Of a stretch of 64,000 nt of DNA, positions 18,737-58,201 are shown piece by piece; the stretch's first letter is position 1; each line of letters begins with the position of its first letter. The DNA is taken from assembly GCA_026214975.1 (NCBI GenBank), contig CM047817.1, forward strand, positions 60,978,407-61,042,406, in the 5' to 3' direction. Source of the stretch: Gentiana macrophylla. Lineage: Eukaryota > Streptophyta > Magnoliopsida > Gentianales > Gentianaceae. The position numbers were made by a program, and so were the translations under genes. The notes under the pieces are model-generated. The model made no database searches and had not been told where the DNA came from. It worked only from the letters and a program-made list of their open reading frames with translations.

Positions 18737-20443
18737 CAAAACAAAAGAAAGGCTCGGAAAGAATATAGACACCTCAACACATATACCACATAGTCAATAA
18801 ATTAGAAGTTCACCATCGTGTGTGTGCATAGCCATAGAAAATTTCCACTAAATCCAAACTTGAATATTTCAAGCAAAACTAGCTAATACCCCCTTCAAAC
18901 TAGTAATAAAAGATACTTATAAGATGCACCCTACAAAACGGAACATATCCCGGAAAAGATGATAGAACACATTTAAGACCTTTCCGACATACTTAGAGGA
19001 TAATCCATACAGCATATCCATCGGTTTATACTGGGGATAATATTAACGATAACTAAGTCTCTTTTCATTCTTTTCATACCAATTCTTAAGTTGATTCAAT
19101 TGATTTCACATTTAAACACACATCAGAATAAGCTATTGCTCATCATAGCAGAATAGGACATACGTGGTATACCCTACCTTACTCAAATCATAAAGCGACT
19201 TCTTTCGATCGTCGTGAGCTTTTGGTCATCATAGTGGAATAAAACATTTCGAGATAATGCCTTACCGCACTCAAATCATCGACCAGCTTCCGACACACAC
19301 TATTGATTTCATTATTAACTCAACTTTTTCAAATGACATTAGCTACGTATTACTTATCACATTCAAACTTCTAGATATTCACAGTACATCGTACTTGGAA
19401 CTAAATACAAACTATCATAAGTCTCGCGATATGAACATTAGCACTAAGCACATGACTTATAAGGAATCAAAACATCACTAATCAAAAGGGGTATAACTTT
19501 ATAATATAGCTCATCATTCACTATGGCTCGTGGAAAATAATATCGGGTGAAACAACTAACTTACGGAACATACGGCATACATCATCAATGAATATAACAA
19601 ACCGAACAAAAAACATGCATTGCTCACTCGAGACAAAACAATTTTTTTTTAAAATTTAGCTCATTTTTGCATAAAAATAAAATCATGTAAGCAAATGTAT
19701 AGATACATATCGACTTATCCCCTCCCCCACACTTAACCTACAACATGTCCTCATGTTGTGCAAAAATAAAAAGAAATAGAAAACTTAGATGATTCGTTGT
19801 TCGAAAGGGAGATATGCTGGAAGTGGGTCGACCTCACCCAGAAATGCTCAACGAATCCAGTAGACTGTGGACCATCCACCGGAAAACTGAAATCGTCTAA
19901 AGCTCACAATCGCTATCGAAAATATCTTGCACACTTGAAAAACAAAGAAATACCTCGGGGGATACAAGGGATTAAACCATATCGCGTAAAAGTGATAGAG
20001 ATAAAGATAAGAGGAAATCGTAAGCAAAACAACACTTCGACCCTGTATAAGATTAGGACGGCTGACTGACAAAAACAACACAATCCTAATAAGATTAAAA
20101 CAACTAGAACAAGGAAAAATAACTAAAGAAAGAAACTAATATAATAAGGGATATCTAGGATGCCTCCTAGTAGCGCTAATGGTTATTGTCGTTAGCTCGA
20201 CACATTTGAAGCTCAGCCTGGATCAGGCCATTTAACCTTTTCGCGACCACTACCTCGTTTAAGCTCCGGTCCGTCTTGTGGTTGCGAAACAGCATCTAAC
20301 ACATGGGGTAAAATCTTTTATAGCCTTCCAAACTCGTTTAATCTTCCCCATGGCTGATTTCTTTCTTCTCTGATTCCTCTGATGACGTTTAAGCTTTTGC
20401 TCTCTTTCATACTCCTCCATATCCCAACTACACCGCTAGAACT
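18737..20443 (-). other. 3' untranslated region of element B
   Basis: No supported ORF. Holds an internal polypurine tract (19721-19735) with a GAGGAC-loop hairpin (19740-19759), a diverged duplicated block of about 67 bp (19131-19198, 19214-19279), and the twin post-pol hairpins at 20155-20202. The part from 18699 to about 19790 is homologous to the spacers of the A array. Confidence 0.8.
20155..20202 (-). promoter_or_regulatory. Twin post-pol hairpins of element B
   Basis: Minus strand: TGTCG-AGCTAA-CGACA (20202-20187), 16 nt, then GCGCT and CTAGG-AGGCAT-CCTAG (20170-20155). The same pair at the same spacing follows pol in D and Athila-1. Confidence 0.7.
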
Positions 20444-21922
20444 TCACGACGAACCAATACCGTCATTCTCGGAGAATAAATCGGATGAAAACTCATCAAA
20501 TTCATTGACCTCTGTAACACCACATCCGAGAATATCGAGAAATTTAACAATCAAAGGTTTTTCTTTAGGTTCACCAATGTAGTGCTTGCACCTTTGACCA
20601 TTAACTCGAAACGGTTGGTCTGGATAACCGCGTAGTTCTAGAACACCTCCAGGAATGATTTGGAGAATCTCAAAAGGACCGGACCAACGTGTTCTCAACT
20701 TCCCAGGAAACAAATGTAACCTAGAATTGTATAAGAGAACTTGCTCGCCGACCTGGAATTCTCTCTTCTTTATCTTGGCGTCATGGAGTAGTTTCATCTT
20801 CTCTTTACTAATCCTGGCGCTTTCATAAGCCTGGAGTCTAAATTCATCCAGCTCATGCAACTGCTGCAATCGATGTTTCCCACAGGATTGGGAATCGAAG
20901 TTCAAAAACTTCGTAGCCCAATACGCCCTGTGCTCTAACTCGACTGGCAGATGGCATGGCTTACCGTAAACCATTTGATATGGCGATGTACCCATAGGGG
21001 TCTTATAGGCAGTCCTATATGCCCAAAGTACATCGTCCAACTTCAGACTCCAGTCTTTTCTATGACTATTCACCGTCTTCTCCAGGATTTTCTTCAGACT
21101 CTGGTTGCTTCGCTCAACCTGACCACTAGTCATCGGATGATATGGTGTGCCGATTTTATGGCGAACACCATACTTCTCGAGGACTTTTTCCAAAGGTCGT
21201 TGCAAAAAAGTGTGTCCTTCATCACCGATCAAGGCACGTGGACATCCAAACCTCACAAAGATGTTCTTCTTCAGAAATTTTATGACCGTTTTATGATCAT
21301 TGTGAGGAGTGGCAATTGCCTCCACCCATTTCGAAACATAGTCAACGCAGACTAAGATGTATTTGTTGCCACAAGATGATGGGAATGGTCCCATAAAATC
21401 GATGCCCCAAACATCAAAGACTTCGCATTCAAGGATGGATTTCAACGGCATGTCAAACCGCCTTGTTAGAGTACCGGTTCTTTGGCACCTATCGCAAGCT
21501 TTACAGAAAGCTTCCGTGTCCTTAAAGATCGTGGGCCAATAGAAACCGGACTGGAAGATCTTCGCAACCGTTTTCCGTGGACCAAAGTGACCACCTGTGG
21601 GTCCACTATGGCATTGCTCGATTATATCGCGTTGCTCAGATTCAGGAACACACCTCCTTAGCAAACCATCTTTACAGATCTTGAAAAGATAAGGTTCATC
21701 CCAAACGAAATATTTCAAATCAGAGAAGAACTTTTTCTTCTCCTGATAAGACATTTCGGGATCGAGATAACGGGCATGAAGGTAGTTCACAATGGAAGAA
21801 TACCATGGAACATCGGGAGGACAACCGTCTATCAACATAATGTTTTCTAGAGGAAAGTAAAGATCTATATCATCAGGTTCATCCTTTTCCTCATTTAACA
21901 TTCTAGAAACGTGATCCGCCAC
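20444..21922 (-). CDS. pol: Element B integrase and end of RNase H linker
   Basis: 492 codons. Opens with the ADHVSR tail of RNase H, then the HHCC zinc domain (H and H in [16 protein letters not shown]), then the catalytic core: Asp in WGIDFMGPF, Asp in LIGDEG and Glu in SGQVERSN, all three present. The C-terminal part has [11 protein letters not shown] and VNGQRCKHY. The text after the second Asp (HTFLQRP) departs from the usual pattern, which suggests a small pair of compensating indels. Translation in life would be as part of Gag-Pol; the Met here is only the first in this frame, since a 1-nt shift near 21940 separates it from the RNase H frame. Confidence 0.93.
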
Positions 21923-21959
21923 TACATTTTCACTGCCCTTTTGTCCTTAATTTTGAACG

Positions 21960-27451: not shown

Positions 27452-28965
27452 TGTCCCGGATTTTATCAATATAAAACAACAAGTAATAAACCGTTAACCT
27501 CAAGTGCAAGGATTGTAGTATGGAGGCTAATGCCGGGTCGATCTTACGGGAACTAGATCATTGTGAACCCTAGCTTTTGTTTTTAACTAACTATTGTCAC
27601 GAAAACTAACCTAAACAGGGAACTAAAACTGGACAAACATGCTGAAAATAAACTAGACAGAGGATGAAATCCAAAGCTAGGAAAGATTGAAAGCGATAAA
27701 CTAAACTAAACTAAAGTGCAGAAAAAGTAGACTAATCTAACAATTCAAGTTCAAAGGATTAAAATCAAATTATAACGAACGAACAAGCAATTGATCCACC
27801 TATCCTATCAACATTCAATTCTAATTCGGATTAATTCGTGATCTCTACTCAAGTCGTGATTCACCTAATCGAAGGCATAAACTCCTACTCTCGTAGACAA
27901 GTTCGTTTCCTAATCTTTTATCTTTCGATGTTAAAGATTACGTCTTTCTAACCTAGGCGTGAAATCTTTCAATTTCTAATCTAGAAAATCAATCTAATAA
28001 CTCGCTTTAGTTAGATCGAAGATCTATTCTTTTATCACGGTGATCTATCGTTAACATGATTTTCATCAAATAAACAATCATCAAAGCAAGCATCTTTCGA
28101 TTATACATGCAAAGACATACAAAACATGATAAAAGAAACGAACTTCAAATAGATACTCACAGATTAATCACGAATCAAAACTGAATTGTTGAAGGAAGGC
28201 TTCACAACGCTTGTTCAAGAGGGTTTTAGCCTCTTAACATCCTTGTTGCAACTCGAATTGATGAAATAAAAGACATGAATCTATCTAATCTAATCTAGGA
28301 ATTAAATTGCATAAACTGGAAGAAAATAGAGTAAAAATGCAGCCTGAGCCGCCCCTATGAAATTAGGGTTCGAATTGTGTGTCAAGGGTTTGAGAAATTG
28401 CGCCTATTTATAGATTTTTAGGTCGGTTTAGGCTAAGGCGGTGCTTGACGCCCGTCCACTATCTTTGGACGCCGTCAAAGAAAGCTTTCGACGGAGGTGA
28501 ACGCTGACCGCTTCGGGCGTCCAAACTCTCTCAGATTAAATTTTCCTTACGGACGCCCGTTTAAGGTCTTCAAACGCCCGTCCAGGGTTGATGCAAGGTG
28601 GACGCTGCTCGTTACTTTGATTCGACGCCATCCATCTTCGATCAAAAACGGACTTCTTCAACTCTATCTCTTTTCCTTCTCAATCCAACTCACCATTATC
28701 TCCTCTATCTTGATTTAGCTCGAGTTTTATCAACATTTGATCATCAATTCAGCCTCAAACAAGTACCTACATGACATCAAAAACACCGCAAAGTGTAACA
28801 TAATTCCAATAAACATAAAATCATAATTAAAACATATAAATTCACCAACTTTGCGATTAACTCATTAAAAATATTATTTGCTCAATAATTCATTTAAACG
28901 CTTAATTCCCATGCAATTAATACGAATATGGGGGAAAACATTATAAAATATAACGTTATAAATAT
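27452..28965 (-). repeat. 5' LTR of element B (outer end truncated)
   Basis: Matches 17237-18676. The outer 20-25 bp carrying TGTTAAGGGTGAAA are missing, and at about 28964 the sequence passes straight into the U5 side of LTR A2 (AACCCCAAGTATAAGG). Confidence 0.88.
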
Positions 28966-30519
28966 AACCCCAAGTATAAGGATCATAGTACTAGTGGTTA
29001 ATGCCGGGTCGATCTTACGGGGAACTAGACGATTGTGGTTCCTAGTTTTTGTCTAACTAAGCTATGTCACGGAAAACTAAACTAAACAGCGATTAAACAA
29101 AACTAAACTGAACATATATGCTGAATATAAACTAGACAGAGGACGAATCCAAAGCTAGGGAGGTTTGGTTGCGAACAAATTACTCTAAAAAGTGCAATAG
29201 AAGATAAACTAACTAAACAGTTTAAGTCTCAAGGGTTAAATCAAATTTAATATGGGCAAACGAGTATTGATCCACCTATCCAACAAACACTAATCTCTCA
29301 TCCCGATTATATTTCAGTTTCTACCAAGTTGTGGTTCATCTTATCAAAGGTATGAATCCTACTTTCGTAGATGATTCGCCTATTAATTTCTATCTTTCGA
29401 TTTACGGAAATTAACGCGTCATAACATAAACAAAGATGTAAACTTTAACGTTTTAACCTAGATTTCAACCTATCAACTTTCGTTTGACATAGACTAAAGA
29501 TCTATTCCTAAATCATGGTGATCTAATGTTTATAAAGACTTTCATCAAATATAAAACATCGTACATGCACATCTTTCGATATAAATGCAATTAACCAACA
29601 TAAGACATGATAAAGGAAACAACTTGATTAAAACTTACAATATAGTCGAAGAATCAAAATCAATGAAAGTTGGATGGCTTCACAATGCTCGTTTGATTGG
29701 AGCCTAGCCTCTTAGCATCCTTGAATAGCTTGAATTGTTGAAGTAAATTGCATAAACTAAACTAATTTAATCTAGGAATTTAAGAGCATAAAACTGGGAA
29801 AAAAACTGAGTAAAAACGCAGCCTATAGCCGCCCCTAGGGTTTAGGGTTCGAGAATTGTAAAATTGGTATCTCAATGTGTAAAAATAGGCAAGTATTTAT
29901 AGAGATTTGAGGCGGTTTTACTAAGTCGGCAATCCGGACGCTCGTCCGGTTAAGTGGACGCTCGTCCAAGTGTTCTGAACTCCAATGTAGACGTTCTTCT
30001 GGATAGCGCCCAAACTCTCTCGATCTTCTTTTTGCACCTTGACGCCGCTCGCTTTTCCGGACGTTCGCTCAAGAAGTTCATGATGCCTCAAGATTGAATT
30101 CTTCCTCTGACGCCCGCTTGGATTTGTCGACGCCCGCCCACTCCTCGGACGGAACTTGGACGCCGCTTTAGCTGGAATAAAACTTGATTAAATCATCTCT
30201 ATCTCTTTTCCTCGCCCACTCCATTCGATCATTATCTCTTCTTAAATCTTTATAGCTCGAATTTTAACCCTTTTGATCATCATTTGAGCACAATAAACAT
30301 TCCTATAACACATGGAAAACATCGCAAACTGTAATAAAGTCCAATTAATTATAATTCACGATGAAAACACATAATTTATTCAATATTGCGATTAAGTCCT
30401 TAAAAACCTAGTATGCTCAATATTTCCATATAAGGGCCATTTATTATGCAATTAATCCAATTAAGAGTGAAAATACCCTAAAATATATCATAATAAAACA
30501 TAGACTTTCACCCTTAACA
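28966..30519 (-). repeat. LTR A2
   Basis: Minus-oriented family A LTR; the U5 end is clipped by about 35 bp at the junction with B, and the U3 end CCCTTAACA is at 30511-30519. Confidence 0.9.
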
Positions 30520-32003
30520 ACTCCCCCACACTTAGCTTTTGCTCGTCCTGAGCAAAACAAAACGAAAAATTAGGCTCGAGAAAGGAAAACAGGCATCTAA
30601 ACAAGTATAACATATATTCAATAACTTAGGTGTTCACCATCGTGTAAGTGCATAGCCATAGGAAACTTCCACTAGAACCAAACTTGAATAACTCAAAGCA
30701 AAACTAGCTAATACCCCCTCGTAGAATAGTAATAAATGACACTCATAAGATGTACCCTACAAACGTGACATATCCCGAAAAGGATGATCGAATGAATCTA
30801 GGGCCTTTCTGAAATACTCAGAGGATAATCCCTACAAAGATATCTATCAGTTTATACTGGGGATAAGATTAACGAAAACTAAGCCTTATTCATTTCATAA
30901 CACATCTTAAGTTGATTGAATTCATTCACTTTAAACACACATTAGGGTGAGCTTTTGCCCTCATAGCAGAATAGGACATTTCGAGATAATCCCCTACCTT
31001 ACTCCAATCATAAGGCAGCTTTTCCTAACTGTCGTGAGCTCTTAGTCATCATAGTGGTATAGGACATACGTGGTATACCCTATCGCACTCAAATCATCGA
31101 CTAGCTTCCGACACACACATAGATTCATTTAAATTTTTCAACTTCTCATTTGACATTAGTTACGTGCTACTTATCACATTCAAACCTCTAGATATTCACA
31201 GTATCTCATACTTCGGATCTAAATACAAACTATCATAAATCTCAAGATATATACGTAGCACTAAGCACATGACTTATAAGAAAATCAAAAATTACTAATC
31301 CAAAACGGGGTATAACTTTATAAATTAGCTCATCATTCACTATGGCTCTCGTGAAAAATAGTGTCGTGAAACAACTAACTTATCAAATACATGAAATATC
31401 GCATAGATGACCATAAAAACAACGAACTTCAAATTGAATTGCCTACTCGGGACAAAACAAAAACAAAAGTGTCGGAAAATTTTGAAAAATTACGCCATTT
31501 CGCATAAAACAACAATCTAACGATTAAACAAACGTGTACGCATAGGTACAAATCGAACTATCCCTCCCCACACTTAAAAATGCAACATGTCCTCATGTTG
31601 TGCAAAGTAAAAGGATAAGAAACTTAGTCAGATGTATGCGCAGAGAAAATCGAGATGTTGGTCAGGCCGAGCATGAAAGAAACAACACTCGCAAAAGCGT
31701 CGAAACAACGTCCAAACCGAACTCAACCGAGAGCTCAACAAAACTAGATCTGTGCACTACTCGACAAAACAAATGAATCTCGGGGAAACGGGTACAATAA
31801 CGGAATAATGTGAAAGGAATGAATGAAAGAGATATAACAACAAGCGTCATCCAAAAATGATCATAATACCAACGAAATCGCAATCCAAGTACGTGGTGCT
31901 AGGATACTTACATGATTTAAGACAACATACGCCACGATAATCAACGATGAGCGAGAAAAATAGAAAGTACAGTAAATCATGGAAGCATCAAAAGGAAAGT
32001 AGT
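30520..32003 (-). other. Array spacer 1 (non-coding internal region)
   Basis: Begins with a polypurine tract and the TTTTGCTC-AGGAC-GAGCAAAA hairpin (30537-30557), carries the duplicated 3' UTR block (about 30955-31110) and a second tract with a CAACAT-loop-ATGTTG hairpin (31583-31600). No gag, pol or PBS. Homologous to the 3' UTR of element B for about 1.1 kb; the last 0.4 kb is specific to family A. Confidence 0.85.
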
Positions 32004-33592
32004 AAAACAAACAAGTAATAAATTTATAATCCGGTTAACCCCAAGTATAAGGTTCGTAGTAGTACTAGTGGTTAATGCCGGGTCGATCTTACTGGGAACT
32101 AGACGATTGTGGTTCCTAGTTTTTGTCTAACTAAGCTATGTCACAGAAAACTAAACTAAACAGCGATTAAACAAAACTAAACTGAACATATATGCTGAAT
32201 ATAAACTAGACAGAGGACGAATCCAAAGCTAGGGAGGTTTGGTTGCGAACAAATTACTCTAAAAAGTGCAATAGAAGATAAACTAACTAAACGATTCAAG
32301 TCTCAAGTGGTTAAATCAAATTTAATATGGGCAAACGAGTATTGATCCACCTATCCAACAAACACTAATCTCTCATCCCGATTATATTGCGTTTCTACCA
32401 AGTTGTGGTTCATCTTATCAAAGGTATGAATCCTACTTTGTAGATGATTCGCTTATTAATTTCTATCTTTCGATTTACGGAAATTAACGCGTCATAACAT
32501 AAACAAAGATGTAAACTTTAACGTTTTAACCTAGATTTTCAACCTATCAACTTTCGTTTGACATAGACTAAAGATCTATTCCTAAATCATGGTGATCTAA
32601 TGTTTATAAAGACTTTCATCAAATATAAAACATCGTACATGCACATCTTTCGATATAAATGCAATTAACCAACATAAGACATGATAAAGGAAACAACTTG
32701 ATTAAAACTTACAATATAGTCGAAGAATCAAAATCAATGAAAGTTGGATGGCTTCACAATGCTCGTTTGATTGGAGCCTAGCCTCTTAGCATCCTTGAAT
32801 AGCTTGAATTGTTGAAGTAAATTGCATAAACTAAACTAATTTAATCTAGGAATTTAAGAACATAAAACTGGGAAAAAAACTGAGTAAAACCGCAGCGTAT
32901 AGCCGCCCCTAGGGTTTAGGGTTCGAGAATTGTAAAATTGGTATCTCAATGTGTAAAAATAGGCAAGTATTTATAGAGATTTGAGTCGGTTTTACTAAGT
33001 CGGCAATCCGGACGCTCGTCCGGTTAAGTGGACGCTCGTCCAAGTGTTCTGAACTCCAATGTAGACGTTCGTCTGGATAGCGTCCAAACTCTCTGATCTT
33101 CTTTTTGCACCTTGACGCTGCTCGCTTCTTCGGACATTCGCTCAAGTAAGTTCATGATGCCTCAGTATTGAATTCTTCCTCTAGACGCCCGTTTGGATTG
33201 TCAGACGCCCGTCCACTCCTGGACGGGACTTGGACGCCAGTTTTAGCTGGAATAAAACTTGATTAAATCATCTCTATCTCTTTTCCTGTCCACTCCATTC
33301 GATCATTATCTCTTCTTAAATCTTTATAGCTCGAATTTTAACCCTTTTGATCATCATTTGAGCACAATAAACATACCTATAACACATGGAAAACATCGCA
33401 AACTGTAATAAAGTCCAATTAATTATAATTCACGATGAAAACACATAATTTATTCAATATTGCGATTAAGTCCTTAAAAACCTAGTATGCTCAATATTTC
33501 CATATAAGGGCCATTTATTATGCAATTAATCCAATTAAGAGGAAAATACCCTAAAATATATCATAATAAAACATAGACTTTCACCCTTAACA
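32004..33592 (-). repeat. LTR A3
   Basis: Complete family A LTR in minus orientation, with the U3 end at 33592 next to a polypurine tract. Confidence 0.92.
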
Positions 33593-34638
33593 ACTCCCCA
33601 CACTTAGCTTTTGCTCGTCGAGCAAAACAAAATGAAAAATTAGGCTCGAGAAAGGAAAACAGCATCTAAACAAGTATAACATATATTCAATAACTTAGGT
33701 GTTCACCATCGTGTAAGTGCATAGCCATAGGAAACTTCCACTAGAACCAAACTTGAATAACTCAAAGCAAAACTAGCTAATACCCCTCGTAGAATAGTAA
33801 TAAATGACACCATAAGATGTACCTACAAACGTGACATATCCCTAAAAGGATGATCGAATGAATCTAGGGCCTTTCGAAATACTCAGAGGATAATCCCTAC
33901 AAAGATATCTATCGGTTTATACTGGGGATAAGATTAAACTAAAATCGAGCCTTATTCATTTCATAACACATCTTAAGTTGATTGAATTCATTCACTTTAA
34001 ACACACATTAGGGTGAGCTTTTGCCCTCATAGCGAGAATAGGACATTTCGAGATAATCCCTACCTTACTCCAATCATAAGGCAATTTTTTCCTAATCGCC
34101 GTGAGCTCTTAGTCATCATAGTGGTATAGGACATACGTGGTATACCCTATCGCACTCAAATCATCGACTAGCTTCCGACACACACATAGATTCATTTAAA
34201 TTTTTCAACTTCTCATTTGACATTAGTTACGTGCTACTTATCACATTCAAACCTCTAGATATTCACAGTATCTCATACTTCGGATCTAAATACAAACTAT
34301 CATAAATCTCAAGATATATACGTAGCACTAAGCACATGACTTATAAGAAAATCAAAAATTACTAATCCAAAACGGGGTATAACTTTATAAATTAGCTCAT
34401 CATTCACTATGGCTCGTGAAAAATAGTGTCAGGTGAAACAACTAACTTATCAAATACATGAAATATCGCATAGATGACCATAAAAACAACGAACTTCAAA
34501 TTGAATTGCCTACTCGGGACAAAACAAAAACAAAAGTGTCGGAAAATTTTGAAAAATTACGCTCATTTCGCATAAAACAACAATCTAACGTACTAAACAA
34601 ACGTGTACGCATAGGTACAAATCGAACTATCCCCTCCC
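33593..34638 (-). other. Array spacer 2, left part, split by element D
   Basis: Same as spacer 1 up to the internal polypurine tract, where element D is inserted; the remainder is at 46158-46594. The hairpin loop before the first tract has lost two bases relative to the other copies (33605-33625). Confidence 0.85.
34634..34638. repeat. Target-site duplication CTCCC of element D, left copy
   Basis: CTCCC at 34634-34638 and 46153-46157 flank element D exactly. The target was the polypurine tract of the array spacer. Confidence 0.9.
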
Positions 34639-36240: not shown

Positions 36241-36258
36241 TGGCGCCGTTGCCGGGGA
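36241..36258 (+). promoter_or_regulatory. Primer-binding site (tRNA-Asp) of element D
   Basis: TGGCGCCGTTGCCGGGGA, six bases after the LTR end. Confidence 0.93.
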
Positions 36259-43131: not shown

Positions 43132-44552
43132 TCAAACCAAAGTGGCCCGATCCGGGTTGATCTTTTGAACTTTGTGTCAAGCTATTGACATTAAAAGAGC
43201 GCTCCTAGGAGGCAACCTAGTTTTCTTTGTTTGTTTTCTTTTCTTGTTTTGTTATATTGTTTTAGAAATAATACTTTAGTTGATTTTGTGTTGATGGTTA
43301 TTCCTCTTACGTTCATTGTGAGTGTTTTGTGTTATGTGTTGCTCATATACCCCGTGTACCCGAGATTATATGGTATGTCGAGTGTTGCGATACTTTTGAG
43401 TTGTGTTTTCGAGTTACTCTTGTCGGTGTTGTCTATTCGAGTTGTCGCGGTATATTCATGCTCCGGCTGACCTCCGCCAACTTTCATCCGACAACCACCG
43501 TTGAAACTAGCTAAGTTTTCTTTTCTTTTATATTGGCACATTCTGAGGACATAATGTGATTTAAGTGTGGGGGGGTGTTTGGGTATGTTTTTATGCTATA
43601 TCCTTTGAAATATGAGTGAAAGTTGAATTTTTTTTGCGAAATTTAAAATTTTTTTGTGAGTCTCGAGCGTATAATTGGAACTAGATGCTTGCCAGTTGTA
43701 GTTTTCTAACGATGATAGTATGTGACTTAGTGAGATAATTATAGCATGTTTTACTTTTATGGAGATAGTTTCGTTTTTCACTCACGAAAGCCTTTGATTT
43801 TGAAGCATGACTTTTGAATTATATCCCTTCATTATTTTTAGTGATTTATCTTAGGAAGGTCAGTATAGTAACACCTTAGTTAGACCGTGTGCTGTGAATA
43901 TCATAAAGTTTGAATGTGATAGGTGAGATGTAACTTATGACTTTGGGAAGTGAATAAATAAAGTGAGTGAGCAATTATTAATAAATACGTTTGTCGGAAG
44001 CTGGTTTATGATTTGGGTGCGGTAGGGTATACCTCGTATGTCCTATACCACTATGATGACCAATAGCTCACGATAGTCAGTTTATAGCTACCTTATGATT
44101 TGAGTAAGGTAGGGTGTTATCACGAAACATCCTATTCTACTATGATGGGTAAGAGCTTATTCTGATATGCGTCAAATTTGAAAATTTTGAAAAATGATGA
44201 GTAAAAATAAAGTAAAGTCTTTGTTATCATGGATCTTATACCCAGTAGAACCGCATGATATGCTGTAGGGATTATCCTACTGAGTGCGTGGGAAGGCCTT
44301 GAGTGGAGTCACATCTTATCTGTACTAGGATAGTCATTGGAATTTTTGAGAGGATATTTCTTTGAAAGGCTTGCTAGATTGAGAATGGCTTGTCACACTT
44401 ACACCGAATCTATCTCTGTGTTGGTATTATTTGCTATAGTTGTTGTATCTTTTGTTACGTGAGTTAGAGATCTATGTGGATTATTTATAAAGTTGAGCTA
44501 TAGTTTTGATTGTTTTGTCCGAGGACGTACAAAAAGCTAAGTGTGGGGGTGT
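43132..44552 (+). other. 3' UTR of element D
   Basis: Non-coding. Twin post-pol hairpins (43175-43220), first polypurine tract (43562-43574) with its GAGGAC hairpin (43537-43558), the duplicated block (44008-44073 and 44094-44159), then the second GGAC hairpin (44513-44534) and the LTR-proximal tract AAGTGTGGGGGTGT (44539-44552). Confidence 0.82.
43175..43220 (+). promoter_or_regulatory. Twin post-pol hairpins of element D
   Basis: TGTCA-AGCTAT-TGACA (43175-43190), 14 nt, then GCGCT-linked CTAGG-AGGCAA-CCTAG (43205-43220). Compared with Athila-1 the stems differ by paired changes while the loops keep AGCYAW and AGGCAW. Confidence 0.7.
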
Positions 44553-46152: not shown

Positions 46153-46157
46153 CTCCC

Positions 46158-46594
46158 CCACACTTAAAAATGCAACATGTCCTCATGTTGTGCAGAAAGT
46201 AAAAGGATAAGAAACTTAGCTGTATGCGCGTAGAAAATCGAGATGTTGGTCAGGCCGGAGCATGAAAGAAACAACACTCGCAAAAGCATCGGAAACAACG
46301 TCCAAACCGAACTCAACCGAGAGCTCAACAAAAACTGGATCTGTACTACTCGACAAAACAACAGAATCTCGGGGGAAAACGGGGTACAATAACGGAATAA
46401 TGTGAAAGGAATGAATGAAAGAGATATAACAACAAGCGTCATCCAAAAATGATCATAATACCAACGAAATCGCAATCCAAGTACGTGGTGCTAGACAGCT
46501 TACATGATTTAAGACAACATACGCCTACGATAATCAACAGTAGCGAGAAAAATAGAAAGTACAGAAATCATGGAAGCATCAAAAGGAAAGTAGT
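46158..46594 (-). other. Array spacer 2, right part
   Basis: Continuation of spacer 2 after element D: the rest of the polypurine tract, the CAACAT hairpin (46173-46190) and the family-A-specific 0.4 kb. It holds a roughly 76-codon open frame (46216-46446) also present at 49284-49514 but without recognisable domains. Confidence 0.85.
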
Positions 46595-48180
46595 AAAACA
46601 AACAAGTAATAAATTTATAATCCGGTTAACCCCAAGTATAAGGTTCGTAGTACTAGTGGTTAATGCCGGGTCGATCTTACGGGGAACTAGACGATTGTGG
46701 TTCCTAGTTTTTGTCTAACTAAGCTATGTCACGGAAAACTAAACTAAACAGCGATTAAACAAAACTAAATCGAACATATATGCTGAATATAAACTAGACA
46801 GAGGACGAATCCAAAGCTAGGGAGGTTTGGTTGCGAACAAATTACTCTAAAAAGTGCAATAGAAGATAAACTAACTAAAGCAGTTCAAGTCTCAATGGTT
46901 AAATCAAATTTAATATGGGCAAACGATTATTGATCCACCTATCCAACAAACACTAATCTCTCATCCCGATTATATTGCAGTTTCTACCAAGTTGTGGTTC
47001 ATCTTATCAAAGGTATGAATCCTACTTTCGTAGATGATTCGCCTATTAATTTCTATCTTTCGATTTAAGGAAATTAACGCGTCATAACATAAACAAAGAT
47101 GTAAACTTTAACGTTTTAACCTAGATTTTCAACCTATCAACTTTCGTTTGACATAGACTAAAGATCTATTCCTAAATCATGGTGATCTAATGTTTATAAA
47201 GACTTTCATCAAATATAAAACATCGTACATGCACATCTTTCGATATAAATGCAATTAACCAACATAAGACATGATAAAGGAAACAACTTGATTAAAACTT
47301 ACAATATAGTCGAAGAATCAAAATCAATGAAAGTTGGATGGCTTCACAATGCTCGCTTGATTGGAGCCTAGCCTCTTAGCATCCTTGAATAGCTTGAATT
47401 GTTGAAGTAAATTGCATAAACTAAACTAATTTAATCTAGAATTTAAGAACATAAAATCGGAAAAAATCGAGTAAAAACGCAGCGTATAGCCGCCCCAGGG
47501 GTTTAGGTTCGAGAATTGTAAAATTGGTATCTCAATGTGTAAAAATAGGCAAGTATTTATAGAGATTTGAGTCGGTTTTACTAAAGTCGGCAATCCGGAC
47601 GCCGTCGTCGGTTAAGTGGACGCTTCGCCCAAGTGTTCGAACTCCAATGTAGACGTTCGCCTGGATAGCGCCCAAACTCTCGATCGATCTTTTTTGCACC
47701 TTGACGCTGCGTCGCTTCTTACGGACGTTCGTTCAAGAAGTTCATGATGCCTCAAGATTGAATTCTTCCTCTAGACGCCCGCTTGATTGTCAGACGCCCG
47801 TCCACTCTGGACGGGACTTGGACGCCGATTTTATTTGGAATAAAACTTGATTAAATCATCTCTATCTCTTTTCCGCCCACTCCATTCGATCATTATCTCT
47901 TCTTAAATCTTTATAGCTCGAATTTTAACCCTTTTGATCATCATTTGAGCACAATAAACATACCTATAACACATGGAAAACATCGCAAACTGTAATAAAG
48001 TCCAATTAATTATAATTCACGATGAAAACACATAATTTATTCAATATTGCGATTAAGTCCTTAAAAACCTAGTATGCTCAATATTTCCATATAAGGGCCA
48101 TTTATTATGCAATTAATCCAATTAAGAGGGAAAATACCCTAAAATATATCATAATAAAACATAGACTTTCACCCTTAACA
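46595..48180 (-). repeat. LTR A4
   Basis: Complete family A LTR in minus orientation, with the U3 end at 48180. Confidence 0.92.
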
Positions 48181-49662
48181 ACTCCCCCACACTTAGCTTT
48201 TGCTCGTCCCGAGCAAAACAAAATGAAAAATTAGGCTCGAGAAAGGAAAACAGGCATCTAAACAAGTATAACATATATTCAATAACTTAGGTGTTCACCA
48301 TCGTGTAAGTGCATAGCCATAGGAAACTTCCACTAGAACCAAACTTGAATAACTCAAAGCAAAACTAGCTAATACCCCCTCGTAGAATAGTAATAAATGA
48401 CACTCATAAGATGTACCCTACAAACGTGACATATCCCGAAAAGGATGATCGAATGAATCTAGGGCCTTTCTGAAATACTCAGAGGATAATCCCTACAGCA
48501 TATCTATCAGTTTATACTGGGGATAAGATTAACGAAAACTAAGCCTTATTCATTTCATAACACATCTTAAGTTGATTGAATTCATTCACTTTAAACACAC
48601 ATTAGGGTGAGCTTTTGCCCTCATAGCAGAATAGGACATTTCGAGATAATCCCCTACCTTACTCCAATCATAAGGCAGCTTTTCCTAACTGTCGTGAGCT
48701 CTTAGTCATCATAGTGGTATAGGACATACGTGGTATACCCTATCGCACTCAAATCATCGACTAGCTTCCGACACACACATAGATTCATTTAAATTTTTCA
48801 ACTTCTCATTTGACATTAGTTACGTGCTACTTATCACATTCAAACCTCTAGATATTCACAGTATCTCATACTTCGGATCTAAATACAAACTATCATAAAT
48901 CTCAAGATATATACGTAGCACTAAGCACATGACTTATAAGAAAATCAAAAATTACTAATCCAAAACGGGGTATAACTTTATAAATTAGCTCATCATTCAC
49001 TATGGCTCGTGAAAAATAGTGTCAGGTGAAACAACTAACTTATCAAATACATGAAATATCGCATAGATGACCATAAAAACAACGAACTTCAAATTGAATT
49101 GCCTACTCGGGACAAAACAAAAACAAAAGTGTCGGAAAATTTTGAAAAATTACGCCATTTTCGCATAAAACAACAATCTAACGTATTAAACAAACGTATG
49201 ATAGGTACAAATCGAACTATCCTCCCCACACTTAAAAATGCAACATGTCCTCATGTTGTGCAGAAAGTAAAAGGATAAGAAACTTAGCTGTATGCGCGTA
49301 GAAAATCGAGATGTTGGTCAGGCCGGAGCATGAAAGAAACAACACTCGCAAAAGCGTCAGAAACAACGTCCAAACCGAACTCAACCGAGAGCTCAACAAA
49401 AACTAGATCTGTACTACTCGACAAAACAACAGAATCTCGGGGGAAAACGGGGTACAATAACGGAATAATGTGAAAGGAATGAATGAAAGAGATATAACAA
49501 CAAGCGTCATCCAAAAATGATCATAATACCAACGAAATCGCAATCCAAGTACGTGGTGCTAGACAGCTTACATGATTTAAGACAACATACGCCTACGATA
49601 ATCAACAGTAGCGAGAAAAATAGAAAGTACAGAAATCATGGAAGCATCAAAAGGAAAGTAGT
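48181..49662 (-). other. Array spacer 3 (non-coding internal region)
   Basis: Same composition as spacer 1: polypurine tract and GGGAC hairpin (48198-48218), duplicated block (about 48620-48760), second tract and hairpin (49241-49258). No coding domain. Confidence 0.87.
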
Positions 49663-51266
49663 AAAACAAACAAGTAATAAATTTATAATCCGGTTAACCC
49701 CAAGTATAAGGTTCGTAGTACTAGTGGTTAATGCCGGGTCGATCTTACGGGGAACTAGACGATTGTGGTTCCTAGTTTTTGTCTAACTAAGCTATGTCAC
49801 GGAAAACTAAACTAAACAGCGATTAAACAAAACTAAACTGAACATATATGCTGAATATAAACTAGACAGAGGACGAATCCAAAGCTAGGGAGGTTTGGTT
49901 GCGAACAAATTACTCTAAAAAGTGCAATAGAAGATAAACTAACAAAACAGTTCAAGTCTCAAGGGTTAAATCAAATTTAATATGGGCAAACGAGTATTGA
50001 TCCACCTATCCAACAAACACTAATCTCTCATCCCGATTATATTGCAGTTTCTACCAAGTTGTGGTTCATCTTATCAAAGGTATGAATCCTACTTTCGTAG
50101 ATGATTCGCCTATTAATTTCTATCTTTCGATTTACGGAAATTAACGCAGCGTCATAACATAAACAAAGATGTAAACTTTAACGCGTTTTAACCTAGATTT
50201 TCAACCTATCAACTTCCGTTTGACATAGACTAAAGATCTATTCCTAAATCATGGTGATCTAATGTTTATAAAGACTTTCATCAAATATAAAACATCGTAC
50301 ATGCACATCTTTCGATATATATGCAATTAACCAACATAAGACATGATAAAGGAAACAACTTGATTAAAACTTACAATATAGTCGAAGAATCAAAATCAAT
50401 GAAAGTTGGATGGCTTCACAATGCTCGTTTGATTGGAGCCTAGCCTCTTAGCATCCTTGAATAGCTTGAATTGTTGAAGTAAATTGCATAAACTAAACTA
50501 ATTTAATCTAGAATTTAAGAACATAAAACGGGAAAAAAATCGAGTAAAACGCAGCCTATAGCCGCCCCTAGGGTTTAGGTTCGAGAAATGTAAAATTGGT
50601 ATCTCAATGTGTAAAAATAGGCAAGTATTTATAGAGATTTGAGGCGGTTTTACTTGTCGGCAATCCGACGCTCGTCCGGTTAAGTGGATGCTCGCCCAAG
50701 TGTTCGAACTCCAATGTAGACGCGTTAAATCTGGATAGCGCCCAAACTCTCTCGATCTTCTTTTTGCACCTTTGACGCCGTCAAATGCTTCTTCCGGACG
50801 CTCGCTCGATAAGTTCATGATGCCTCGTGATTGAATTCCTCCTCTAGACGCCCGTTTTGATTGTCGACGCCCGCCCACTCCTAGACGGGACTTGGACGCC
50901 TTCGCTTTAGCTGGAATAAAACTTGATTAAATCATCTCTATCTCTTTTCCTGTCCACTCCATTCGATCATTATCTCTTCTTAAATCTTTATAGCTCGAAT
51001 TTTAACCCTTTTGATCATCATTTGAGCACAAATTGCACAATAAACATACCTATAACACATGGAAAACATCGCAAACTGTAATAAAGTCCAATTAATTATA
51101 ATTCACGATGAAAACACATAATTTATTCAATATTGCGATTAAGTCCTTAAAAACCTAGTATGCTCAATATTTCCATATAAGGGCCATTTATTATGCAATT
51201 AATCCAATTAAGAGGGAAAATACCCTAAAATATATCATAATAAAACATAGACTTTCACCCTTAACA
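49663..51266 (-). repeat. LTR A5, outer boundary of the composite insertion
   Basis: Family A LTR in minus orientation; its U3 end CCCTTAACA (51258-51266) abuts the right AAGAT duplication instead of a polypurine tract. Confidence 0.92.
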
Positions 51267-51271
51267 AAGAT
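51267..51271. repeat. Target-site duplication AAGAT, right copy
   Basis: Matches 15628-15632; Athila-1 coding sequence resumes immediately afterwards. Confidence 0.9.
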
Positions 51272-52330: not shown

Positions 52331-53560
52331 GATCTTGGCTTGAAGGAGAGTTGGAGAAGCCATCAATTGAGGACCCACCAAAAGACTTGAAAATGAAGCC
52401 GCTCCCACCTCATTTGAAGTATGTTTTTCTTGAAAATGATGATTTACTTCCTTTGATTATTTCTTCTACACTAACGGCTTTGCAGGAAAATGAGTTAGTG
52501 AGGATGCTTAAGAAGCATAAGCGTGCTTTTGGGTGGAAGATGTGCGATCTTAAGGGTATTAGTCCCACCATTTGCCAACACAAGATTATTTTGGAAGATG
52601 GAGCGAAGCCGGTAAGGCAACCCCAAAGAAGGCTCAATCCACACCTCCAAGAGGTTGTGAGGAAGGATGTGGTCACGATGTTGAAGCTAGGAATCATCTA
52701 CGCCATCTCGGATAGCAAGTGGGTGAGTCCCACCCAAGTGGTGCCGAAGAAAGGAGGTATGACCGTGGAGATCAATGACAAAGGTGAGGAGGTGCCTAAG
52801 CGTTTGGTAAGTGGTCATAGAATTTGCATTGATTATCGTAAGCTAAATGACCAAACCCGTAAAGATCATTTCCCCTCCCTTTTATTGATCAAATGTTGGA
52901 GAGATTGAGTGGCCATGCCTTTTATTGTTTTCTTGATGGGTTTAGTGGGTATTACCAAATACATGTGGCTTTAGAGGACCAAGAAAAGACTACCTACACT
53001 TGCCCCTATGGTACCTTTGCCTTCCGTAGGATGCCTTTTGGGTTGTGTAATGCACCCGCGACATTCCAACGGTGCATGGTTGCCATATTTGCGGATATGA
53101 TAGAAAAGTTTTTAGAAGTCTTTATGGATGATTTTAGTGTATTTGGTGATTCCTTTGAGGAATGTCTAGATAATCTTGAGAAAGTGTTGAGTAGATGTGA
53201 GGAGACAAACTTGGTGCTAAATTGGGAGAAGTGTCATTTGATGGTTACGGAGGGGATAGTCTTAGGGCAAAGATATCTAGTAAGGGTATAGAGGTAGACA
53301 AGGCTAAGGTTGAAGCGATAGGTAAGCTTCCTATGCCCACCAACCTAAAGACTCTTAGGGGTTTTCTAGGCCATGTGGGGTTCTATCGTAGGTTCATTAA
53401 GTATTTCTCGAAAATAGCCCGTCCACTTACTCTTCTTCTTGGAAAAGACGTCCCGTTTGATTTCGACCAAGCTTGTGTTGAAGCATTCTTGATGCTCAAG
53501 AAATTGCTTGTATCCGCTCCTATCTTAATTTCCCGAAATGGGATCAAGAATTTGAGCTCA
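52331..53560 (+). pseudogene. pol: Athila-1 pol: reverse transcriptase, three frames
   Basis: 52351-52885 carries LRYVFL-like lead-in, KPVRQPQRRLNPHLQEVV and RICIDYRKLNDQTRKDHFP. After a shift, 52893-53270 has FYCFLDGFSGYYQIHV, YGTFAFRRMPFGLCNAPATF and the catalytic FMDDFSVFG. After a second shift, 53275-53530 has KAKVEAIGKLPMPTNLKTLR and GFLGHVGFYRRFIKYFSKIA, the RT connection region. Each break is a single small indel. Confidence 0.92.
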
Positions 53561-55365
53561 TGTGTGATGCGAGTGACACCGCGGTTGGTGCGGTCCTCGG
53601 TCAAAAAATCGACAAAATCTTCAAGCCTATTGCTTATTCTAGTCACACCTTGAATCCGGCCCAACAGAACTACACCACCACTGAAAAAGAACTTTTAGCA
53701 GTCGTCTTTGTGTTCGATAAGTTTAGGTCTCATCTCGTAGGTTCTCGAGTAGTTGTCCACACGGATCATGCCGCCTTGCGTTATCTCTTCGCCAAGCAAG
53801 ATGCCAAGCCCCGCCTTTTAAGGTGGATCTTGCTCTTGCAAGAGTTTGATTTAGAGATCCATGATAGGAAGGGTTGTGAGAATGTCGTAGCCGACCACTT
53901 AAGTCGTATGGAGCTTAGTGAGGAGTTGATTAAAGCACAAAGGGAGATAAATGATTCTTTTCCTCACGAGCAACTTTATGCACTCGACACCCTTCTTCCG
54001 GCTAAGAGAGGAAACTTTCTAAAAGTCGGTAAGGAAGGTAGTCCTTGGTTCGCTCCTTTTGTCAACTACCACGAGTGCGGTTTTGTAGATCCCGACCTTG
54101 ACTCGAACCAAAGGCGTAAATTCCTTAGTGAGGTGGGTAAGTATGTGTGGGAAGATCCTTGTTTATATAGGTTGTGTTCGGATGGCATTTTGAGGAGGTG
54201 CATCCCGGAGGGTGAAATTTTGAGTGCTCTTTCGTTTTGTCACGACAAAGAGGCCGGAGGCCATTTCTCGGGGCAAAGGACAGCTTTGAAAGTGTTGAAA
54301 AGTGGGCTATATTGGCCCACTCTATTTCGAGATGCACATGCTTATGTGAAATCTTGCGATGCTTGTCAAAGGTCCGGTCGTATATCTAGAAGGAGTGAGA
54401 TGCCTCAGAAGCCGATCATAGTGTGTGAGATTTTTGACGTGTGGGGCATTGATTTCATGGGCCCCTATCCCTCTTCGTGTGGTAACAAGTATATCCTAGT
54501 CGCTTGTGATTATGTGTCCAAATGGGTCGAAGTCTTAGCTTCACCCACCAATGATAGGAATGTTGTTATCCGGTTTCTTAGGAAGAACATCTTTTGTCGG
54601 TTTGGGGTGCCTCGTGCTATAATCAGTGATAATGGAAGTCATTTTGCCAACAAGCCGTTTGATAAACTTTTAGAGAAGTATGGAGTGAAACACAAGTTAG
54701 GTACCGCTTACCATCCCCAAACGAGTGGTCAAGTCGAAGTCACGAATAGGGGTATTAAGCGTATCTTAGAGAGGACGGTAGACACGAATGTCAAGAGTTG
54801 GTCTTTAAAGTTAGACGATGCTTTGTGGGCCCATAGGACAGCCTTTAAGACACCCCTAGGCATGTCACCTTACATGATAGTCTATGGTAAGTCTTGTCAC
54901 CTTCCCGTAGAGATCGAGCACAAGGCTTATTGGGCCATCAAAATGCTAAACCTCGATGATACCTTAATTGGTGAGAAACGTATGGCCCAATTGAATGAAC
55001 TAGTTGAGTTCCGCCTTTGTGCTTATGACCTTTCCACGAAGTATAAAGGAAAGACTAAGTTACTCCATGATAAGTTGATTAAACCTCGTGTTTTCAATGA
55101 GGGTGATGAAGTCTTGTTCTACAATACTCGTTTGCATCTTTTCCAAGGGAAGTTGAAGTCTAGGTGGTCCGGCCCCTATGTTGTGTCGAAAGTCTATCCG
55201 TCCGGTGTTATCGAAATCACCCATCCTAAGTTTGGCACGTTTACCACCAATGGCCTAAGGTTGAAAAGGTATGAGCGGTTGCCCTACGATAAAGCACTAG
55301 AAATAGTGCATCTTGAAGACCCCGTACCTTGTGATGAATCTTGTAAGTCTTGTCATGGACTTTAA
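53560..55365 (+). CDS. pol: Athila-1 pol: RNase H and integrase
   Basis: 601 codons intact. RNase [50 protein letters not shown]. Integrase: zinc domain (H and H in [18 protein letters not shown]), core with Asp in WGIDFMGPY, Asp in IISDNGSHF and Glu in [10 protein letters not shown], all present; then [13 protein letters not shown] and [12 protein letters not shown] at the end. The first Met is internal to the polyprotein; homology begins slightly upstream in another frame. The stop is followed within 110 bp by the twin hairpins. Confidence 0.95.
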
Positions 55366-56407
55366 ACCTTGACTCGTATAATTCTGAATCCATCCTTCCA
55401 TCTTTCTACCCTTTCTCGCCTTGTGCCAACGGTATAACTTTGAAAAAGTTGGCACCGTATAATCCATATTGTCGAGCCAACGACGTAAAACAAAGGCGCT
55501 TGGGGGAGGCAACCCACCATTTCGTAGTTTGTTGAGTTAGTTTGGTGTCTCTAGTGGTCTCGGGGCGGTTAGAATCAAGTGTGGGGTAGAAGTCTTGAGT
55601 TTTCCAAGTTTCTGGTCCAAACGCCCGTTTACCCCTTTCAAACGTGCGTTCTGATTTTTTCCTCTCAAACGCGCGTTTAGAATCATTTCAAGCGCGTTTG
55701 GAGCCTCAACTCTCTGAATGTGAATCCTCTCCCCAAACGCACGTTTCACACTTCAAACGCGCGTTTGATCTTGCGAAACGCGCGTTCCACCTCTTTCAAA
55801 CGTGTGTTTGGAACCATCTTCTTTAAATATCTGCACTTCAACCCGGCGTTTCAGAAATCGCGTTTTATTAACCTAACCGTCCCGCGACCGCCGCCACCTC
55901 CTTCCACTCAAATCCTTCATTTCTCAACCATTTTTGGCGATTCAAAGCCCAAACAACACCTCTCAACCTCCTCTTTTGATTTCAACAAGCCATTCCATCA
56001 ACAAATCATCCAAATCCTCGATTCGAACTTCACTTTTGACGGTTTTTCACCATTGTCGAATTTAGCCAATTTGGACGTTTCGAGGCTCGTTTTTCACTCC
56101 AAATCATTCTCATCATCTCTTTTAAGCATAAGACAGGTATATTTCGATTTTACGTTTAGGTTTCGGTTAGGGTTAGTTTTTGGCCTATTTTGGTTTAACG
56201 CCCTTTCTCGTTATTTATTGTTTATTGATGATTATATCCTGTTTTTGTTTGTTTTGTTGATCGATGGTGAATGGTGTGGCTTTTGTGGGGTGTTTCGTTG
56301 TGGATGGTTGGTTTGTTTGAAATCCCGGTTGGACGATAACCGGGTCGGTTTTGATTGTAATTTGGTTGTTTGGTGTTTGTTTGGTGTTGTTTGGTTGGTG
56401 TTCATAG
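55366..56407 (+). other. Athila-1 region between pol and the third ORF
   Basis: Twin hairpins (55470-55516), a polypurine-like AAGTGTGGGG at 55577, then eight AAACGCGCGTTT-type boxes (55618-55810) and TTTAAATA near 55822. 55830-56400 is C/T-rich and then T/G-rich, possibly a leader or an intron. An open frame at 55720-56412 runs through the boxes and looks fortuitous. Confidence 0.65.
55470..55516 (+). promoter_or_regulatory. Twin post-pol hairpins of Athila-1
   Basis: TGTCG-AGCCAA-CGACG (55470-55485; the outermost pair is a wobble), 15 nt with GCGCT, then TGGG-GGAGGCAA-CCCA (55501-55516). Confidence 0.65.
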
Positions 56408-58201
56408 AATGAGGGAAACTAAACGTAAGGAAACCGAGGGTAAAGGTAAGGGGAAGCAACCAATGACTAGGCAAGCCCCTAAAAATAGAAAACCTTAGTT
56501 TCTCCTCGGGTACCTACGGGTGGTATTCGAATTGGTGGTGCAGTTGAGAGTAGAAATCCTCGAGCCCTTAGGCCAGCGGGACAGTTGAGAGATGAGACGT
56601 CTGACGAAGATTTTGAGCCGGATACCGAGGGGAGGAATACGAGTAGTGATAGTGATGAGGCTACAGACTTTGAGAGCGATGTGCCATTGGCACATTTGCA
56701 ACCCAAAAATGCAAAGACTAGTGCTCCACCTCCTCCACAGAGTGCTCCCGAGCAAGACCCTCCTCTAGCTCCCTCTCCTGATGGTATTATCCCTTTTGAG
56801 CAGTGTTTTAACTCACAGGTTGCATTCTCAAACTATAATGAGTTTATCGTTGTGAAAAACATGTGTTATGAGAGGGGGCTAGACCTCAAAGTTGTGCCTA
56901 AGTCTTTTATCGATGATTTGAGGAAAAGGGGGTGGAATAATCTGATTTGCGAGCCGGATGGGAATCTCAATTTGTCATTAGTCCGGGAATGGTATGCAAA
57001 CTTTAGTGTGGCTAATCTTGATTCCGGTTTCATAAAGGTCAGAGAGGTCAATGTCCCGTGGTCGGTTAAGGCTATCAGTGATTATTATTGGATACCGGCT
57101 TTCGAGGGTCAGGACTACGTTAGTTGGTTCGCAGAGAGATCTCACTGGGGTAATACTGAGAATCCAGATCCGTTAGAGGAGATGAGGAAAGCAATCAACC
57201 CCGACTTACCGTGGATTTCAAAAGGTAGCAATTTGAGAAGTCAATTGGTGACGACGACCTGGCCGGATGTTTGGAAAGTGAAAGCTTAGTTTTCTCAGAA
57301 CCGTCTACTACCGAAGGACAACATTACGCACTTCCACATTAAGGATTTGCAATTGTTGTATGCTCTACACTATAATCTGAAGGTAGACGTCGGGAAAACC
57401 ATCTTTGAGGAATTTAGAGAAAATCAAAAGGTTAGGCGTCGGATGATTATGTGCCCCTACCTTATTCACGGCTTGTGCAAGAGAGCGTTGGTGAAAGAGT
57501 ATCCAGACGATCAGATTTTGAGGAAGAAGAACCTGCCTGTGGCACCAAGGCCGTTTAATGCTCGCTCCGCTTCCAGACCTCCTATGACCACCCCTCGACC
57601 CATTCACACCGTCCTCCGCCCTTCCACCTCCACCACCTCCACTACCTCCACCACCATCCCCATACCACCTCCTATCTTTTCCTCCACTACTACCACTACT
57701 ATACCCCCACCTCCTCCCTCTACTACTGGACCTTCCACCATCCCTACACCTCCACCTTCTACACCTACTACCGGGGGGCCGTGGCTTAGTGAGCGGCAGG
57801 GGCTTCTGATTGCGCATAAACAGAGAGACTGGATGGATAGTCTGAGGGTGACACTGAACGGCATCGTGGAGAATCAGCAGGTATTGGCTCAGGAGAGGCA
57901 GGTTGAGCTTCCTGAATTGAATCTAGATATTGCACCGTTTCAGTATACCCCGGAGATCGAGGCAGATTTGCAGAGAGTCATAGAGGAGTCATTTGTTGAG
58001 GAGCCGGACGAGGGGTTTGATGATATCGATTTGGATGATTTAGTGGGCACAGATAGGGCTGGGACAGATGCAGCTGGGACAGAGGCAGTGAGGACAGGTG
58101 ATGCAGGACTTACCCAGATCGAGAGTGCAGCTGCTGTGGTTGCACCAACATCAGGCACACCGGATTCCACTACTGACGTACAGGGACATGGAGCTGACTA
58201 G
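56408..58201 (+). pseudogene. Athila-1 third ORF: putative plant transposon protein
   Basis: A basic start at 56408 (MRETKRKETEGKGKGKQPMT) shifts frame near 56495. From 56585 to 58201 one frame is open except for TAG at 57287. The acidic Ser-rich start is followed at about 56800-57300 by the conserved part (GLDLKVVPKSFIDDLRKRGW, LVREWYANFS, WIPAFEGQDY), which I match from memory to the 'putative plant transposon protein' domain often found with Athila-type elements. Then come LHYNLKVDVGKTIF and a Pro/Thr-rich tract (57600-57770), and an acidic C-terminus. No transmembrane segment or signal peptide is visible, so an envelope role is not supported. Function unknown. Confidence 0.7.

Follow-up and report, generated by a model that had tools for sequence, protein, structure and literature searches.

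Twin hairpins downstream of integrase in Gentiana macrophylla LTR retrotransposons, a possible cis-acting signal of full-length element RNA

Three LTR retrotransposons in a 64,000-nucleotide stretch of the Gentiana macrophylla genome (hereafter the window) carry two small adjacent hairpins downstream of integrase. A sequence-only reading of this DNA proposed that the hairpins are under selection as RNA structure and left their function open. Two questions follow: do the stems change in pairs when many copies are compared, and what might such a structure do for the element that carries it?

The three elements are called A1, B and D (Table 1). A1 has the pol order of Ty3/gypsy elements, with RNase H before integrase. 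The primer binding site of D fits the 3' end of tRNA-Asp over 18 nt and that of B over 12 nt. These are primers of the non-chromovirus type, which include tRNA-Ala, Arg, Asp, Lys and Trp according to excerpts of PMC6317226. The elements may be called Athila on the strength of the sequence-only reading, the primer type and the domain order, rather than of a tree with reference elements. The window also contains tandem arrays (28965-34638 and 46156-51267) in which an LTR-like unit of ~1.6 kb alternates with a stretch of ~1.5 kb at a period of ~3.07 kb. The arrays are divided by element D, are related to the 3' end of B and are without the module.

Table 1. Positions in the window of the twin-hairpin module, its parts and the associated features of elements A1, B and D.
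Element	Feature	Position	Strand	Basis or remark
A1	RNase H-integrase frame	53482..55365	+	stop ~105 nt before hairpin 1
A1	hairpin 0, GTGCCAAC / GTTGGCAC stem, 17-nt loop	55423..55455	+	sequence
A1	module	55470-55516	+	letters read at this site
A1	hairpin 1, TGTCG-AGCCAA-CGACG	55470..55485	+	sequence; pattern; covariance model
A1	A-rich linker	55486..55495	+	sequence; linker lengths of fetched copies
A1	GCGCT box	55496..55500	+	sequence; genome pattern
A1	hairpin 2, register GGG-AGGCAA-CCC	55504..55515	+	backed by covariation
A1	ORF3 region, two frames with PF20167 pieces	56489..58201	+	below curated cut-off
B	integrase frame	20444..21946	-	ORF list, domain match
B	hairpin 0, CCTG-ATC-CAGG	20217..20227	-	sequence; anchored copies
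B	module	20202-20155	-	letters read at this site
B	hairpin 1, TGTCG-AGCTAA-CGACA	20187..20202	-	sequence; covariance model
B	GCGCT box	20172..20176	-	sequence
B	hairpin 2, CTAGG-AGGCAT-CCTAG	20155..20170	-	sequence; covariance model
D	primer binding site, 18 nt	36241..36258	+	complementary to tRNA-Asp 3' end
D	hairpin 0, CCCG-ATC-CGGG	43146..43156	+	sequence; anchored copies
D	module	43175-43220	+	letters read at this site
D	hairpin 1, TGTCA-AGCTAT-TGACA	43175..43190	+	sequence; covariance model
D	GCGCT box	43199..43203	+	sequence
D	hairpin 2, CTAGG-AGGCAA-CCTAG	43205..43220	+	sequence; covariance model

We found that the module has a constant order of parts: hairpin 1 (GUC-N-AGCNAW-N'-GAC), an A-rich linker, GCGCU, and hairpin 2 with the loop AGGCAN. 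All three copies had the letters and the positions given in the sequence-only reading, and a covariance model found three modules in the whole window (A1 scored 73.1 bits, the A1 copy itself being among the model sequences). The linker was 9-12 nt long in 115 of the 118 fetched copies that fit the hairpin-1 pattern. The loops had been described as fixed at AGCYAW and AGGCAW. They are indeed conserved, but the letters allowed are wider, AGCNAW and AGGCAN; loop 2 was AGGCAN in 114 of 121 hairpin-1 matches (window included). Likewise, GCGCT precedes hairpin 2 in all three copies but is not obligatory, as 11 of 19 first modules found by pattern in B-type elements had GCGCC. Genome counts that demand GCGCT are therefore too low for the B type.

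The alignment showed separate small terminal hairpins, as did two of the three short folds. The exception was A1. When its 67-nt stretch was folded alone, hairpin 2 took another pairing register, and in a longer context only hairpin 1 had a high pairing probability. In D, the first and last letters of loop 1 are able to pair, giving a longer stem. The A1 register that covaries is GGG-AGGCAA-CCC and not TGGG-GGAGGCAA-CCCA. The exchange of TGGG/CCCA for CTAGG/CCTAG that had been proposed is thus not like-for-like; the real exchanges in this hairpin are at pairs 3-5.

Counts in the window are weak evidence on their own, because shuffled windows reached them in 4 and 10 of 100 cases. The hairpin-1 pattern, with up to two mismatches, occurred at three places, all of them exact (shuffled mean 0.87; 4/100 reached 3). 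GGAGGCAWCC, with up to one mismatch, occurred six times, the three exact matches being the known modules (shuffled mean 3.08; 10/100 reached 6). We also searched one plant genome, the 1.79-Gb genome of the window's plant. The pattern GCGCTNNNNGGAGGCAACC matched 2751 times and its reversed form 0 times. Hairpin 1 followed by GCGCT, with any letters allowed at the closing pair, matched 11,221 times (4 reversed), and both hairpins with the middle left free matched 4087 times (control 0). These counts reject chance as the source of the motif. Of the 4087 matches about 100 were listed, of which 14 had no exact GCGCT; most of the 14 differed from it by one letter. A G-C-closed hairpin 1 followed by GCGCT and the loop AGGCAW, with stem 2 free, was found 2829 times, and the same pattern with a longer spacer 1777 times (control 0 for each). 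U-A-closed modules with a spacer of 3-6 and the loop AGGCAW were rare, with two in the genome; the three U-A modules that were fetched have longer spacers or other loops than this pattern.

In IMG/VR, 52 contigs contained the hairpin-2 pattern and none of these, by eye, contained hairpin 1; the best covariance-model score there was 21.8 bits. One G-C-closed double pattern had no match in bacterial and archaeal genome contigs. Rfam 15 gave no match in the window at the curated gathering score, and the twin hairpins were unmatched in three fetched loci (L085, L092 and L108) at E up to 1. The nearest family was Bacillus-plasmid RNA, whose match at 2390-2431 of L092 ends at the edge of the module and scored 23.1 bits against a cut-off of 31 (E 0.21). 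Locus L092, a copy that is missing RT-integrase, separately contains an antisense match to snoR71 (RF00097; 580-685, minus strand; 48.1 bits, cut-off 40) in its gag-matching part.

The covariance hits in the window and in 40 loci selected by hairpin 2 include model sequences, which match by construction. We therefore give separately two samples that were chosen by integrase. For the B type, 20 stretches of 0.9 kb downstream of integrase were drawn from the 86 integrase matches listed (86 scored of 70,702 first-look candidates). For the A1 type, 20 stretches of 300 nt were drawn from the 71 matches listed. The module was present in 20/20 B-type stretches (30 hits, with two modules in 10 of the 20) and in 20/20 A1-type stretches. 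The best hit per stretch scored 48.3-77.7 bits in the B type and 57.5-78.4 bits in the A1 type, and none of these sequences was in the model. In every A1-type stretch the pol stop was the first codon and the model match started 77-105 nt later. With 90-97% identity between the sampled copies and their query, the two samples represent two families rather than the lineage.

The module was better kept than what surrounds it. Non-majority letters made up 1-6% of the module, 5-14% of upstream and 13-24% of downstream sequence in the A1 type; in the B type the values were 5-12%, 9-25% and 24-40%. The 100-150 nt upstream, which hold a further hairpin (hairpin 0), were fairly well kept (5-14% in A1; 9-21% in B from 50 nt on). 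Most loop columns of the alignment had 1.7-2.0 bits, the exceptions being loop-1 positions 4 and 6 (0.35 and 1.05) and loop-2 position 6 (0.74), compared with 0.05-1.07 bits for flanking columns, with the caveat that the search patterns had fixed some loop letters.

We found that the stems covary. The closing pair of hairpin 1 was G-C in 75 of 118 fetched modules, A-U in 36, U-A in 3, G-U in 2 and mismatched in 2. Among 97 modules found with the hairpin-2 pattern the numbers were G-C 60, A-U 27, G-U 2, U-A 2 and mismatched 6, some of these six being possibly misplaced windows. Over 120 distinct modules, 88.0% of cells were paired (79.9% shuffled), and both sides had changed in 147 cells, compared with 63.3 +- 7.7 after shuffling. 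Seven pairs showed a double change (5.1 shuffled; 14/500 shuffles reached 7), and the covariation score was 0.295; shuffling gave 0.163, and sliding the arms gave no more than 0.161.

To reduce the weight of related copies, 132 modules were collapsed into 32 clusters with less than 80% upstream identity between clusters. The closing pair was paired in 30/32 clusters (22.5 expected; 0/5000 shuffles equal), as G-C, A-U, U-A and one G.U. Hairpin-2 pairs 3, 4 and 5 also covaried (P 0.009, 0.003 and 0.006), by a control that consists of shuffling and clustering within one genome and is not phylogeny-aware across many plants. Covariation of the outer pair of hairpin 1 was not significant (P 0.29 with 32 clusters, and 0.13), and the letters of hairpin-1 pairs 1-3 and hairpin-2 pairs 1-2 barely vary. 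A looser clustering (6 clusters), with which the closing pair was not significant, was replaced by the stricter 32 and 48 clusters. RNAalifold alone gave three pairs, all within hairpin 2. Based on the covariation at the closing pair and at hairpin-2 pairs 3-5, which exceeds that in shuffles, and on loops that are better kept than flanks, the proposal of selection on RNA structure is supported, and the two-hairpin structure is well supported by comparison of copies.

A palindromic DNA or a sequence motif without RNA function, spread by recent copying and altered by CpG decay, is the least probable of the explanations that we considered. Most stem letters are nearly invariant, and the change of the closing pair from G-C to A-U is two CpG transitions. 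On a tree of the integrase region (37 of 57 modules), the 12 A-U rows form one clade and count as one change. Off the tree, A-U copies without upstream integrase (L067, L080, L092, L093) and U-A copies (L101, L149, L160) suggest further changes. In contrast, neither the U-A closing pair nor the C-G/G-C/U-A exchanges in hairpin 2 are products of CpG decay, which disfavours this decay as the only source of covariation. Downstream flanks diverge and the module stays. Closings one step away are rare in the genome (G.U 253 and A.C 123, against 11,221, with slightly different gap ranges), and the excess of G.U over A.C is what folding of the sense RNA strand would give. Over all ten pairs of the alignment, G.U and A.C were about equal (43 and 40), which fits a motif without RNA function and shows no general wobble excess on the sense strand. 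The argument for pairing in RNA and not in DNA thus comes from the closing pair, in related copies.

Three features go beyond the sequence-only reading and are new here: hairpin 0 with its changing stems, modules that are doubled at many loci, and carriers that are missing RT-integrase or ORF3. Hairpin 0 lies 14-18 nt before hairpin 1 in the three window copies. In B- and D-type copies it is CCCG-ATC-CGGG or CCTG-ATC-CAGG, with the four positions paired in 42 of 47 copies caught with flanking anchors. A1-like copies have a longer hairpin 0, with 7 bp and changed letters in 9 of 14 anchor-caught copies and 2-6 bp in the other 5 (stems TGCCAAC/GTTGGCA, TGCCAAT/ATTGGCA, TGTCAAC/GTTGACA, TGCCGGT/ACCGGCA and one U.G variant). 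The numbers do not amount to a test, because the anchors are biased towards these forms.

The other two features come from the 40 loci, each of at least 5 kb, which were compared with the gag, pol and ORF3 of the window. Two modules on the same strand were present in 13/40. In such pairs the letters differ and the structure is alike (for example, 1886-1949 and 2472-2535 of L070). The spacing was ~580-620 nt in L069, L070, L073, L087 and L096, ~456-485 nt in a clade with a run of A after hairpin 2, 94-98 nt in L006, L007 and L102, and 1562 nt in L100. The second module of one clade kept its stems and had GCCCT for GCGCT, loop 2 GCGGTAA or ACGGTAA, and loop 1 AGCTCC (AGCTC in L068). In L084 (2402-2447) and L085 (2350-2395) there is an extra unit like hairpin 1 ~95 nt before a full module; that in L085 is GTCGATGCTAACGACG with an A-rich linker and GCACT. 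Hairpin 1 of L097 (2471-2534) has a GTCG/CGAC stem and the tetraloop GTGG in place of AGCNAW.

An integrase match lay upstream of the module in 23/40 loci (65 aa only in L097). Four loci (L072, L085, L092, L093) had gag and/or protease and no RT-integrase, one (L071) had ORF3 only, and 12 had no match to the gag, pol and ORF3 queries. ORF3 frames in L073 and L096 were above the PF20167 cut-off. The pol-less and ORF3-less carriers suggest that the module meets a need in cis and not one of coding.

The module is probably kept, in many families and thousands of copies, as a handle for recognising element RNA. Given its structure, its position, how widely it occurs and its presence without RT-integrase or ORF3, we infer that it may be a cis-acting structured signal of the full-length transcript that serves in the selection of genomic RNA, a reading to which we give a probability of about 0.4. 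The exposed loops AGCNAW and AGGCAN, spaced by the A-rich linker and GCGCY, would form a platform for a protein, most likely Gag or a host protein, and the bound module would mark unspliced genomic RNA for entry into particles. Copies that use proteins in trans would have to retain the module, and several families carry two. We rank selection mediated by Gag first for two reasons: pol-less copies, which would be served in trans, keep the module, and known signals of this kind include hairpin pairs.

Several points count against this role. Most known packaging signals are near the 5' end. The retention of the module in pol-less copies may be passive, since a deletion of RT-integrase need not take what follows it, and the loci without query matches may be truncated or nested copies. 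In Diaspora, a related element of soybean, 128 bp separate the pol stop from the polypurine tract that follows it (PMC1142308, excerpt). The tandem arrays of the window are without the module, which would matter if they move by reverse transcription.

The GACG double-hairpin motif has GACG loops and is in the 5' untranslated region. The module, which comes after pol and for which a packaging role is only inferred, has no GACG, its loops being mostly the hexaloops AGCNAW and AGGCAN. It resembles that motif, an encapsidation signal of murine-leukemia-related viruses and spleen necrosis virus (titles cited in PMC5086612), in consisting of two small adjacent hairpins with like loops. The foamy-virus CasII or Pol encapsidation region is likewise a cis-acting RNA at the 3' end of pol, but, according to excerpts of PMC6669543, it is ~2 kb within 3' pol with purine-rich elements. 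The module is ~50 nt with two hairpins and is outside pol, after the stop in A1 and its 20 sampled kin and after the integrase frame in B. The constitutive transport element of MPMV is also a cis-acting RNA structure with a doubled recognition feature. It is one stem-loop of 150-175 nt that has two internal loops and recruits NXF1 (PMC7551171, in part), whereas the module has terminal loops on separate hairpins. Sireviruses, also a group of plant LTR retrotransposons but of the Ty1/copia type, have conserved non-coding motifs (PMC2829016), a likeness taken from the title and abstract.

It is less likely, though second in rank after selection by Gag, that the module controls nuclear export or splicing, by retaining or exporting unspliced gag-pol RNA and tempering a 3' splice site of ORF3. 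The module sits in the interval from pol to ORF3. What follows hairpin 2 is rich in U (T makes up 56% of a 15-nt segment that begins 30 nt past the start of GCGCT) and, by eye, has AG steps in many families. Loop 1 can read CUAAC or CUAAU; it can also read CCAAC, CAAAC or CUAUU. Barley Bagy2 is spliced, according to part of a review (PMC7264820), and in foamy virus the env splice acceptor is held in check by a purine element of 3' pol (PMC6669543, excerpt). However, no 3' splice site that is constant across families was seen by eye, what comes after hairpin 2 is a run of A in L065, L068, L079, L091, L095 and L098 and AAT repeats in other families, and the module is present in elements without ORF3. 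No sense frame longer than 95 aa lies between module and 3' LTR in B and D, so these have no ORF3-sized frame, which disfavours a role specific to ORF3.

We regard as improbable an element of translation or of the 3' end of a gag-pol message, one that would shield or terminate a shorter transcript, or bring in ribosomes. The module lies no more than a few hundred nucleotides past the last long frame in those types where a frame was seen, and one clade has the run of A after hairpin 2. But the A-run rows are a single clade of the 37-row tree, and the ORF3 frame of A1 opens ~1 kb downstream. The run of A in the L065 clade and the AAT repeats in L077, L106 and L170 are possibly traces of polyadenylated ends or growth of simple repeats.

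In the bipartite primer binding site reported for Ty3, complementarity to the primer tRNA extends to a stretch remote from the 5' primer site. A similar contact, in which tRNA-Asp, once annealed by its 3' end to the primer binding site, pairs through its freed 5' strand (GUCGUUG) with CAACGAC of hairpin 1 and circularises the RNA, is more doubtful still. Besides the fit of the primer sites of D and B, tRNA-Asp genes of this genome start with GTCGTTG (21 matches), and at least six consecutive pairs with the 5' end of the tRNA, wobbles included, can form in 90 of the 120 distinct modules. But the match was spotted post hoc, and the duplex energy with tRNA nt 1-12 (mean -9.06) was little better than shuffled (-7.31, sd 2.03). 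In contrast to the site reported for Ty3, D and the U-A families keep the hairpin with little of the complementarity left: D, although primed by tRNA-Asp, has a hairpin-1 type with four pairs, and the U-A families have three. Stem changes follow each other and not the tRNA.

Cis-acting RNA structures of retroelements are a known kind, and the twin-hairpin module was unmatched in Rfam and the literature searched. Searches of open-licence articles in PMC gave no description of it; older papers on Athila4/Calypso and BAGY-2, outside that set, may mention it. The word hairpin does not occur in the main text of PMC1142308 or PMC2410132.

The module shows that selection on structure acts in the stretch from pol to ORF3, which resembles spacer. 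How these plant LTR retrotransposons choose their genomic RNA has no answer in the literature that we found, and a module of ~50 nt with defined loops and stems makes RNA recognition directly testable. In addition, pol-less copies can be annotated by means of it. More tentatively than for the signal itself, it is possible that a plant retrovirus-like lineage and its pol-less dependants share one tandem-hairpin code, placed where gag-pol ends and often doubled, by which genomic RNA is sorted from other transcripts, and that non-autonomous copies persist through keeping the module.
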